This document shows positions 30,276 through 35,382 of a stretch of 64,000 nucleotides of DNA, in pieces. The DNA is from Myxococcales bacterium (lineage in GTDB: Bacteria; Myxococcota; UBA727; GCA-2721815): assembly GCA_002721815.1 (NCBI GenBank), contig PBLQ01000002.1:1-64000 (forward strand). Reading direction: 5' to 3'. The position numbers and the translations under genes are program-made. The notes beneath the pieces are model-generated. The model was given only the letters and a program-made list of their open reading frames with translations, was not told where the DNA came from and made no database searches. Every line of letters begins with the position of its first letter. The stretch's first letter is position 1.

Positions 30276-30289
30276 TTTAAAGGTGTACA
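30276..30289 (+). promoter_or_regulatory. 14-base element shared by both PPC lipoprotein genes, copy 1
   Basis: TTTAAAGGTGTACA, ending 70 bases before the ATG. The same 14 bases lie 76 bases before the ATG of the downstream paralog (32950-32963). It contains the partial palindrome TGTACA and overlaps CCTTTAAAGG here. A shared regulatory site or conserved duplication remnant is possible. Confidence 0.4.
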
Positions 30290-30359: not shown

Positions 30360-32276
30360 ATGCAAAAACTTTTGATTGTTTTATTGGCTCTATCGTGGGG
30401 CGTTTTGGGATGTCCGTCCGCTCCTGGTCCGGACGGAGATGAGAACGAAACAAGCAGTCAAATGATTTTTGACGGTGGCACTGCCAATGACCAGCCGGGC
30501 GACAATGGTTCCCAAACTTCGGGGGATGCCGGTCCTAATGATAATACCCCGCCACCCAGCAATGCAGCGGGAACCTGTGCTGACCCTTATGACCTGCTTC
30601 CTGGTGGGGACACCCGCGCCATGCCGGCCCGTGAAAGTGCTTTGGTTGGCAGCTGCGGTGGCGCTGGTCCCGAGGCCGTTTACAAGTTCGTATTGGATGA
30701 AGATTCTGGCGTGAACATTCAAGTGGATGGCATTGACAGCGTGATCTATCTGCTGGGCGGGTCTTGTAGCGCCGCCAGCGAAGTAGAAAATTCATGCCGC
30801 GATTACGAATATGCCGCCACGCCGGCAGAAGAGATTAATATCGCCAAGTTGGCGGCTGGCACGTACTATTTGGTGGTGGACGCTTACAGCACTGAAGAGC
30901 GGGGCACTTATAATATTTCGTGGACCGTGACCCCGGGCGGTTTTTGTGCCAACGATTTGTATGAGCCCAACCAAGATGCAGACGGAGCGGTGTCATTGGG
31001 GGCAACCGATATTGACACTGCGGCCATCGAAGGGGCAGAAGGCGAACCGGCCGAATCTGTTGAATTTGAAATCTGTGAAGGCGATGTGGACTTCTTTTCT
31101 TTGGGTCACATGGGCGGCAATTTGAGTTTGACTGCCACGCTGACGGACGAAGCGGGAACCATCACGGGTGAAATCTTCAAATCCAAACGAACAGGGGACG
31201 AAGACACCGGCTACTCTTACGAAGAGGGTGAGAGTATGGGTGAATTGCCTTTTGACGGTGCCTTAGAAAGTGGACTCTACTTTCTAAAAATGACGGGTAC
31301 TGCCGCAGAGACCGCAGATGGTCCGAACTACACCCTGGCAGTGGTCCACGAGTGCGAACCTGATTCCTATGACAGTTATGACCCCGAATACGATGATGGG
31401 TCCTATGAAAATGTGAGCATTCAATTAAACAACACGCTGCCCGAACCCGTACAGAGAAAATTGTGCGCTGACGATGTGGATACGGTGTTGCTCGATAACG
31501 TGATCGCGGGTGACATCACTGTCACGCTCATGGGTGGTGCTGGATTTGCCGCTGTGGTGCAGTCGGTGAATGAAGATGTAGAGGATACCGAAGCAGGCAC
31601 GGATTCGGATGGCGGTGTGGCCGATGAGGAAGATGTCGCCTTAACCGACAGGGTTGCAGATGTTGCAGATGTGGGCGATGACCTCGTTGTGACCATCACT
31701 GACGCTGCTGCCGGCAGCTATTTGTTGACCATTTCGGCCAATGGGGTGCCAGCCACCACCGAATATGACTTGAATGCCATTTTCGCTGGCATTGCCGATG
31801 GCCCTGCGAACGACCAATGTGAAGAAGCCACCACGCTGCTCACAGACAACGTGGAGGTGGTGGGTCATACATTCAATGCCACTGACGATGTAGATGGCCC
31901 AACCACAGAAGATGTAAACAGCATCGGTGATACGACCATTTCGTCCTGCAATGGCGAACCAGAAGCGGACGAAGCCATGGCCGCAGCCGAAGACGAGGGC
32001 CTTGAACCGGTTGGGACGCCCGCCGATGTCTTCTACTATTTAAATTTGGCGCAAGCCGCGGACTTTGAAATCAACTACGATGGAAGTGATAACGGCTTTT
32101 CTGCGGCCGTTTACATGTTGATTTCCAATGGCACTTGTCCTGTCGATTTAAGCTCTTTGCCCTATGTCAACACCGCTGATGGTGCACCTCTGTGCGCCAC
32201 GGGAACATCCAACCGCATCCGTGTGGATGATTTGCCCGCTGGGGATTATCTGTTGGTGGTGGATGGGGTTTTCTGA
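30360..32276 (+). CDS. PPC-domain lipoprotein, interrupted by in-frame TGA (5' part)
   Basis: A predicted lipoprotein (MQKLLIVLLALSWGVLGC) with a DAG/Asn-rich linker and several beta domains of the pre-peptidase C-terminal (PPC) type. The repeated phrase YYLVVDAYS / DYLLVVDG after Leu-Ala/Pro-(A/P)GxY/D and VDFFSLGHMGGNLS are characteristic. It is 638 residues to the TGA at 32274-32276. The frame stays open beyond it to 32801. The continuation aligns with the downstream paralog (FGIPHSVT..., then the QDYPDGFPPIESC domain) to its C-terminus. The paralog has Asp at this place. The start ATG has AAGGA upstream. Either a recent nonsense mutation, a sequence error, or rare readthrough. Probably a surface protein; function unknown. 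Confidence 0.8.
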   Translation: MQKLLIVLLALSWGVLGCPSAPGPDGDENETSSQMIFDGGTANDQPGDNGSQTSGDAGPNDNTPPPSNAAGTCADPYDLLPGGDTRAMPARESALVGSCGGAGPEAVYKFVLDEDSGVNIQVDGIDSVIYLLGGSCSAASEVENSCRDYEYAATPAEEINIAKLAAGTYYLVVDAYSTEERGTYNISWTVTPGGFCANDLYEPNQDADGAVSLGATDIDTAAIEGAEGEPAESVEFEICEGDVDFFSLGHMGGNLSLTATLTDEAGTITGEIFKSKRTGDEDTGYSYEEGESMGELPFDGALESGLYFLKMTGTAAETADGPNYTLAVVHECEPDSYDSYDPEYDDGSYENVSIQLNNTLPEPVQRKLCADDVDTVLLDNVIAGDITVTLMGGAGFAAVVQSVNEDVEDTEAGTDSDGGVADEEDVALTDRVADVADVGDDLVVTITDAAAGSYLLTISANGVPATTEYDLNAIFAGIADGPANDQCEEATTLLTDNVEVVGHTFNATDDVDGPTTEDVNSIGDTTISSCNGEPEADEAMAAAEDEGLEPVGTPADVFYYLNLAQAADFEINYDGSDNGFSAAVYMLISNGTCPVDLSSLPYVNTADGAPLCATGTSNRIRVDDLPAGDYLLVVDGVF

Positions 32277-32801
32277 GAGGGTTGGCCCAGCTTTGGGATT
32301 CCTCATTCCGTGACCCAAGGGAGTTTTAAAATCTCCGCTCAAGATTACCCCGACGGTTTTCCACCCATCGAAAGTTGCGCCAATGCCACCATCGCTGAGC
32401 TGCCCACATCTGGGAACAGCGTGGAGTTCACGGTAGACCAAGAGGACGGGTACAGTTGGATCGACTCTTACGAAAATTGTGGTTCCGCCACCAATGCCAG
32501 TGGCGGGCAAGAGGTCATTTTTGTGCTCGAACCTACTGACGACATGACTCTCACCATTCAAGCCACGGGCGATTACGACACCGTGGTTGAGGTGCGAGAA
32601 GCCAACACCGAAGAGCCAGAAGCCTATCAATGTGAAAAAGGCATTCAGGTGGCCTGCAACGATGATGGCACTGGGGTTGCGAATTTGGGGTCCTTGCTCG
32701 AAGATGTTTCTCTGACTGGCGGCAAAATCTATTACTTGGTGGTGGATGCCTACAGCAGTTATTCATCGGGTGAAGTGACGGTGACCCTGACGGCCGAATA
32801 A
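32277..32801 (+). pseudogene. C-terminal continuation of the interrupted PPC lipoprotein
   Basis: 174 codons in the same frame after the TGA. They are homologous end to end with residues ~605-780 of the paralog: QDYPDGFPPIESCANAT, SWIDSYENCG, GDYDTVVEVREANT, CEKGIQVACNDDG and IYYLVVDAYS. It has no ribosome site of its own; a GTG at 32310 is the only plausible restart. Without readthrough it would not be translated as part of the lipoprotein. Confidence 0.75.
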
Positions 32802-32822
32802 ATTCGCCTCCCAGGTCGCTCA

Positions 32823-32857
32823 AAAACCCGCAGTCGCTTAAAACTGCGGGTTTTTTC
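32823..32857 (+). terminator. Rho-independent terminator after the first PPC gene
   Basis: A 12-bp stem AAAACCCGCAGT / ACTGCGGGTTTT with loop CGCTTAAA, followed by TTTTTTCG. It lies 20 bases beyond the end of the downstream part of the interrupted gene, so transcription is expected to cover the region past the TGA. Confidence 0.9.
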
Positions 32858-32949: not shown

Positions 32950-32963
32950 TTTAAAGGTGTACA
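32950..32963 (+). promoter_or_regulatory. 14-base element shared by both PPC lipoprotein genes, copy 2
   Basis: TTTAAAGGTGTACA, here extended into the 10-base palindrome GGTGTACACC. Ends 76 bases before the ATG of the second PPC gene. A weak hairpin (CCGGT...ACCGG) lies just upstream. Same element as at 30276-30289. Confidence 0.4.
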
Positions 32964-33039: not shown

Positions 33040-35382
33040 ATGCAAAAAAATGTGATCATGGGGCTTGCAGCGCTGTGGATGGCTGTCGGGTGTGTACCAA
33101 CGACGATCGATGATGAATTCGGAGGCAGTCGCTCTGAAGAAGTCACCGAAGCTCAAGACGAAGATGATGATGACAACAATCAGCAACCCAGTGATGCCGC
33201 GGGTAACTGCGATAACCCTTACACCCTCTTTCCCGACGGGGACAGTCAGACGCTGCCCACCACGGCCAGTGCCCTGACAGGTTCTTGTGGTGGTGAAGGT
33301 GCCGAAGTGGTTTATGAATTCACTTTGGAGGAGCGTTCTGGCGTTAACATTCAAGTGGGCGGTGCCGATGTGGTGGTTTACCTTCTAAAAGATACTTGTG
33401 ATGTGACCAAAGAAGTAGAGGGCAGTTGTGCTGACTCTAATGACCCCAGTGCCGTAGAAGAAATCAACTTGGGCACCTTAGAACCAGGTACTTATTACCT
33501 CGTCGTAGATACTTACTCAGCTGAAGTGACAGGGTCTTATACCATTCAATGGACGGTGACTGCAGGCGGTTTTTGTGCCAACGACGATTATGAGCCTAAC
33601 AACGAAGCGGGCGAGGCCGTTTCTTTGGGGGCCAGCGATATCGACACCGGCGCCCTCGACCAAGGCGAAGGGGAGCCCACCGCGTCCGTGGATTTCGAGC
33701 TTTGCAGCGATGATGTGGACTTCTTTTCCTTTGGCCACATGGGCGGCAATGTTTCAGTGAGCCACACCGTGGTTGAAGAGGCCGGGACCATTTCGGGTGA
33801 GGTCCTTCAATTGGTTATGGTGGGTGACGATGACAATGGCTACACCGCCACTGCTGGCGACAAAATGGGCGATTTGCCCTTCACCGGTGATTTGGATCGC
33901 GGCAGCTATTTGGTGAAACTCACTGCCACGGTGCCGGATACCACCAATGGCCCGAACTACACCATCGCGGTGGACCACGATTGCGAAGCAGACAGCTTGG
34001 ACGCCATTGATGCCGAAGACGATGATGGCTCTTTGGCAAACAACAGCGTGAGCCTCATGAACACCTTGGAAACGCCTACTTTGCGCACCATTTGTGGTGA
34101 AGACCTCGACACATTCTTGCTGCAAAACATCGTTGTTGGTGACGTCACGGCAACGCTTTCGGGTGGGGCAGCGTTGAGCGCCATCGTTCAAAGCGTGGGT
34201 GCAGAAGATGCATTGACCGTGGTCGCTGCTTCGACTGAAGTTTCTGGCGATGACTTGGTGATCACTTTGACCAATGCCGCTCCCGGGAACTATCTGGTCA
34301 CTGTGTCGGCCAACGGGGTGGCCACCACCACTGAATACGGCATTAACGCCATTTTCTCTGGAATTGAAAATGGGCCGGCCAACGGCACTTGTGCCAATGC
34401 TGAAACACTCGCTTTTTCCGCTGATGTGGCCTCGGCAATGGGCCATAACATTAATGGAACCGATGATGCGGAAGGGCCCACGCTCGAACGCGATGACGGT
34501 GAGGGCGGTACAGAAGAATATTCATGCAATGGTGAAGATTTGGCTGATGAAGCCATGACCACAGCTACGGCTGATGGCGTTGACGGGGTTGGAACGCCCG
34601 CCGATGTTTTCTATTACATGAACTTGGCTGCTGCCACGGATGTTGAAGTGGTTTTTGATGGTACTGATTCCGGTTTTTCTGGCGCGGTGTACATGATGAA
34701 CTCCGGAGGGACCTGTCCCTCTGATTTGAGCACACTCACCTATGTCAACGGCAGCGATGACAACCCTTTGTGTGCGGTGGGCACCTTCAGTCGTGTGCGT
34801 TTGGATGATTTGGCCGCTGGGGATTACCTGTTGGTTGTCGATGGCATCTTCGATCCCGGTTTTTCATTTTTCGGCATTCCTCCATCGGTGACCACGGGTG
34901 GGTTTACGCTGACCACGCAGCAATACCCCGATGGCTTTCCAGCGATTGGCAGCTGTGTGAATGCCACTGCGACCACATTGCCTGCGTCCGGCGCCAGTGT
35001 TGAAATGACGGTGAATGTTGAAGACGGTGAAAGCTGGATCGACAGCTACGCCGATTGTGGTGAATATGCGGACCGTGCTCGGGGCGGCAATGAGCAGATT
35101 TTCATTCTGGAGCCCACTTCCGATCTCACCATCTCGGTGAAAGCCGAGGGGGATTACGACACGGTGGTAGAGATTCGCGAAGCCAACACCACCGAAACCG
35201 GTGCGTTTCAATGCGAGAAGGGGACCCAAGTCACCTGTAATGATGATGGTGAGGGACTCGAAAATTACGGGTCTTTGATCGAGAGCGCTTCGCTCACCTC
35301 CGGTAAAACCTATTACTTGGTGGTCGATGCTTTCAACAGCAGCGCCAGTGGTTCGGTGACGGTCACTCTAACTGCTGAATAA
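33040..35382 (+). CDS. PPC-domain lipoprotein, intact paralog
   Basis: A 780-residue predicted lipoprotein (MQKNVIMGLAALWMAVGC) in the same arrangement as the interrupted neighbour. An acidic Asp-rich linker (TEAQDEDDDDNNQQ) is followed by about six beta domains with the recurrent TYYLVVDTYS / DYLLVVDG / TYYLVVDAFN and VDFFSFGHMGGNVS phrases, typical of PPC domains. Rich in Asp and Gly, likely calcium-binding and extracellular. The ATG at 33040 has AAAGGAAA upstream. The two genes are a tandem duplication, each with its own terminator. Function unknown; a role in adhesion or matrix is inferred. Confidence 0.85.
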   Translation: MQKNVIMGLAALWMAVGCVPTTIDDEFGGSRSEEVTEAQDEDDDDNNQQPSDAAGNCDNPYTLFPDGDSQTLPTTASALTGSCGGEGAEVVYEFTLEERSGVNIQVGGADVVVYLLKDTCDVTKEVEGSCADSNDPSAVEEINLGTLEPGTYYLVVDTYSAEVTGSYTIQWTVTAGGFCANDDYEPNNEAGEAVSLGASDIDTGALDQGEGEPTASVDFELCSDDVDFFSFGHMGGNVSVSHTVVEEAGTISGEVLQLVMVGDDDNGYTATAGDKMGDLPFTGDLDRGSYLVKLTATVPDTTNGPNYTIAVDHDCEADSLDAIDAEDDDGSLANNSVSLMNTLETPTLRTICGEDLDTFLLQNIVVGDVTATLSGGAALSAIVQSVGAEDALTVVAASTEVSGDDLVITLTNAAPGNYLVTVSANGVATTTEYGINAIFSGIENGPANGTCANAETLAFSADVASAMGHNINGTDDAEGPTLERDDGEGGTEEYSCNGEDLADEAMTTATADGVDGVGTPADVFYYMNLAAATDVEVVFDGTDSGFSGAVYMMNSGGTCPSDLSTLTYVNGSDDNPLCAVGTFSRVRLDDLAAGDYLLVVDGIFDPGFSFFGIPPSVTTGGFTLTTQQYPDGFPAIGSCVNATATTLPASGASVEMTVNVEDGESWIDSYADCGEYADRARGGNEQIFILEPTSDLTISVKAEGDYDTVVEIREANTTETGAFQCEKGTQVTCNDDGEGLENYGSLIESASLTSGKTYYLVVDAFNSSASGSVTVTLTAE

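Follow-up and report, generated by a model that had tools for sequence, protein, structure and literature searches.

A probable recent nonsense codon in one of two tandem PPC-type lipoprotein genes of a Myxococcales bacterium that encodes a selenocysteine system

We examined an in-frame TGA that interrupts the gene at positions 30360–32801 (forward strand) of the window, that is, the whole stretch of 64,000 nucleotides analysed here, and found that this gene, one of two tandem copies of a PPC-type lipoprotein gene, probably carries a recent nonsense codon in the assembled sequence. Most likely the case is an ordinary one, either a nonsense allele in one tandem paralog or an assembly variant. 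The gene appears to encode a multi-domain lipoprotein whose translation would most likely terminate at 32274, giving a protein of 638 residues in which one PPC-like domain is cut short and all that lies beyond it is missing. The nonsense change would be recent, and the neighbouring intact copy probably makes the loss tolerable through redundancy. An earlier sequence-only reading had also taken a recent nonsense mutation as the likeliest explanation, and it is supported in this by the intact paralog and by the lack of a SECIS match.

The first part of the gene comprises 638 codons (30360–32273, forward strand) and starts at ATG 30360, which is preceded by AGGAAAG; its product has a signal peptide with a lipobox (…GVLGC). 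The read-through protein matched PF04151 within this first part, with 27.5 bits against a curated cut-off of 25.9. The TGA (32274–32276, forward strand) shares the frame of ATG 30360 and is the one internal stop counted. After it, 174 further codons of the same frame, homologous to the C-terminus of the paralog, run on to a TAA at 32799–32801 (32277–32801 with the stop, forward strand), with no second stop and no frameshift, so the split frame is as the sequence-only reading had described it. Coding potential per codon, based on codon usage, was 0.29 after the TGA and 0.27 before it. The position previously claimed for the terminator was also correct: the only strong intrinsic terminator, a 13-bp stem plus T-run (32822–32855, forward strand), lies 3′ of the full frame, and none was found directly after the TGA.

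Alternatively, translation could restart at or beyond GTG 32310, the downstream part then being a gene of its own. There is indeed a mechanical ORF at 32310–32801 (163 aa), but it lacks a signal peptide and a lipobox, neither a clear Shine-Dalgarno run nor a promoter-like site could be found for it, and homologs have the corresponding part within one chain, which makes a restart barely credible. The lack of a promoter-like site and of a clear ribosome-binding site just after the TGA argues instead for a nonsense codon.

The intact tandem paralog (33040–35382, forward strand) encodes 780 aa. The interrupted frame aligns with it through the final residue, with an identity that rises from 56% before the TGA to 65% after it, and the alignment places an Asp of the paralog at the TGA site; earlier statements on the similarity up to the end and on the Asp were thus both borne out. 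Both copies are lipoproteins with PPC-like domains and have the lipobox Cys at residue 18, and the PF04151 score of the paralog (24.2) falls just under the cut-off of 25.9. Distant relatives of both copies were found across Myxococcota-like genomes, in records named Deltaproteobacteria, Polyangium, Sandaracinaceae and others. A lipobox and repeated PPC-like segments are common to the window gene and the PPC-domain (PF04151) lipoproteins of Myxococcota-like bacteria, whereas the relatives available for comparison with the window gene are distant only (~30–36% identity). A contig search with the single protein P0002 as query recovered no relative, and one with the alignment of the two copies recovered distant PPC matches only.

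The relatives that align across the TGA site, in four same-order genomes, have uninterrupted frames. According to the homolog alignment, the loop that contains the site is prone to indels and varies in length; opposite the TGA the paralog has Asp, one homolog has Gly and three have gaps, and none of the homologs aligned has Cys. The intact tandem paralog, the uninterrupted frames of same-order relatives and the location of the TGA in an indel-prone loop that never has Cys at this point all argue for a nonsense codon. The gene combines a disabling lesion with intact homologs, as is expected of a nonsense allele or pseudogene. Like a young bacterial nonsense pseudogene or truncated paralog, it has a single in-frame stop, an otherwise intact frame and an intact paralog next to it, but it differs from a young pseudogene in having no visible decay so far.

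This lack of decay after the TGA counts against a nonsense codon; a recent loss would explain it, and so would readthrough. The sequence-only reading had proposed to compare dN/dS before and after the TGA, and this ratio (NG86) proved unusable since dS was saturated. We used pN and lineage counts instead, and both show no excess change after the TGA: pN between the paralogs was 0.247 after the TGA and 0.291 before it, while the lineage-specific changes in the TGA copy and the intact copy were 14:12 after and 67:50 before (Fisher p = 0.83, with low power). Over most of the period since the duplication the last 174 codons were similarly constrained, and any loss would be recent, since no excess change is seen; about 0.05 changes per site are expected to create one further stop. 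The absence of excess change fits both readthrough and a young nonsense allele and does not separate the two.

Leaky or regulated readthrough of the window UGA by a near-cognate tRNA, giving a minor longer form, is unlikely, and we give it a slim chance. The downstream frame does look constrained, and a case based on dN/dS has been made that bacteria frequently read through in-frame stops (PMC7918605). However, tRNA-Trp (CCA) has a normal anticodon stem of 5 bp (a 4-bp stem, an idea drawn from the abstract of PMC13092985, was tested for and rejected), and no UCA tRNA besides tRNA-Sec was present among the 19 tRNAs examined of ~33. In addition, we asked whether orthologs share the stop and remain constrained beyond it, and the stop was absent from all homologs; these are all distant, and a close ortholog could differ. 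If shown to occur, readthrough would be relevant to how UGA can be decoded independently of SECIS elements in a selenoprotein-producing organism.

We surveyed 2.68 Mb, or 58% of the genome, for SECIS-like hairpins and for stop codons flanked by coding potential before and after (labels such as C2 and C10 denote contigs of this genome). The search for selA, selB and selC that the sequence-only reading had suggested was positive throughout: profile matches, all scoring above cut-off, identified a cluster of tRNA-Sec (71.7 bits, anticodon UCA), selA (426 bits) and a convergent selB (270 bits) at C51:44825–48068, and a selD in Cys form (419 bits) at C14:29121–30032. The genome thus has a complete selenocysteine system (tRNA-Sec, selA, selB and selD). 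We also found five probable selenoprotein genes: a TUGYCR redoxin (C10:236583, reverse strand; NF053656 with 150 bits against a cut-off of 100), an AhpC/TSA-like lipoprotein (C21:55938, forward strand) and a zinc-ribbon protein (C11:35678, forward strand; NF049953, under its cut-off), these three detected by coding potential, as well as a peroxiredoxin (PF00578; C45:84092, reverse strand) and an AhpD-type CFYUT protein (NF041238; C2:41041, reverse strand), both found partly by their SECIS geometry. All five combine a redox motif with an uninterrupted stem of 6–8 bp (G-U pairs allowed) and a loop that begins with GGU or GUU, its first G being 18 to 22 nt from the UGA. UGA is probably used for selenocysteine in at least five genes of this genome. 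Ordinary gene calling would cut all five at the in-frame TGA, and several of them are of lipoprotein or redoxin type.

Since the genome has a selenocysteine system and selenoproteins, selenocysteine at the window site was tested on its own merits. In PMC1088965, selenoprotein candidates were accepted on Cys homologs and a SECIS element, with more than 50% TGA/Cys pairs required; the window site, which has neither a Cys homolog nor a SECIS match, would fail these criteria. A stem-loop was predicted after the TGA, as had been claimed, but at 32277–32304 (forward strand) rather than 32279–32306 and at chance level. Its inner stem has 4 bp, its loop is GCUU and the first loop G is at +14 from the UGA, outside the geometry of all five SECIS elements of the genome. 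The fold energy gave z = −0.37 to −0.41, with ~30% of shuffles folding equally well, and adding 20 nt of upstream sequence led to a different fold that displaces the hairpin. Among random sense codons, 17% are followed by a hairpin that has a stem of 4 bp or more and G as its first loop base.

The protein context points the same way. No UxxC, CxxU or TxxU motif surrounds the window UGA (…VVDGVF-U-EGWPSFGIP…, in a PPC domain), and neither a nearby Cys nor a redox fold was found, in agreement with the earlier view that no redox role is evident. The window gene shares with the selenoprotein genes of this genome (NF053656, NF041238, PF00578) an in-frame TGA, the selenocysteine machinery and some downstream hairpin; unlike them, it is without a redox motif or Cys homolog, and its hairpin is too short, with the wrong loop at the wrong distance. 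It is accordingly very improbable that UGA 32274 encodes selenocysteine and that the hairpin after it acts as SECIS, despite the tRNA-Sec (UCA), selA, selB and selD, the at least five other probable genes and the G-starting loop directly after the UGA. The sequence-only reading had called selenocysteine a long shot, and this rating stands on the hairpin geometry, the redox context and the homologous residue; its premise has changed, as the genome does encode selenocysteine. A hairpin at chance level, unlike the SECIS of the five selenoprotein genes, again argues for a nonsense codon. As a recoding case the gene matters little. It illustrates well that, before recoding is proposed for an in-frame TGA followed by a plausible hairpin, the site should be compared with the selenoproteins of the same genome.

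TGA terminates 251 of 1114 long ORFs in the 2.68 Mb surveyed, which rules out a genome-wide reassignment of UGA (code 4/25 type) and confirms the earlier statement that TGA is a normal stop here. Besides the window gene, two non-redox genes in the surveyed sequence were split by a single stop: a TPR plus kinase-like gene (C10:70944, forward strand), whose first 138 codons are followed by an in-frame TGA and which is uninterrupted in two same-order genomes and lacks a convincing SECIS, and a lipoprotein-like gene without a Pfam match (C14:27000, forward strand), split by an in-frame TAG and with an uninterrupted homolog in another genome of the phylum. These two further splits, with uninterrupted relatives, indicate that isolated nonsense splits occur in this genome at a low rate. 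Two of the three splits are TGA, while mutation alone would make TGA ~0.21–0.24 of nonsense changes; this counts against a nonsense codon, though the chance of at least two TGA among three (~0.14) is not significant. That some non-redox UGA codons (in the window gene and the TPR-kinase gene) are usefully read through in the absence of a standard SECIS, so that both a long and a short form of the protein are made, likewise has a slim chance.

A lesser but substantial possibility is that the TGA reflects an error in base calling or in the consensus, or a variant from a minority strain, in an assembly of metagenome type; the gene would then be intact in most cells. The assembly is MAG-like (74 contigs, 98% completeness, 2.6% contamination), the rest of the interrupted gene looks functional, and the mere three splits outside the selenoprotein genes in 2.68 Mb could arise from consensus errors at a low rate. 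We also considered contig C25 (GC 0.407) as a contaminant and ruled this out: its low GC is an artefact of 74 kb of N.

Finally, a PDB search gave weak collagenase matches only (E ~0.005), and a structure prediction from two sequences (mean pLDDT 38.5, pTM 0.25) is not counted as evidence. The lipobox and PPC domains suggest an envelope or surface role for the family. An exact match search identified a 14-base element, TTTAAAGGTGTACA, that is identical 5′ of both paralogs: one copy lies 84 nt before the ATG of the interrupted gene (30276–30289, forward strand) and the other 90 nt before that of the intact paralog (32950–32963, forward strand). No further exact copy occurs in the surveyed 2.68 Mb, and the element is possibly a regulatory site retained since the duplication.
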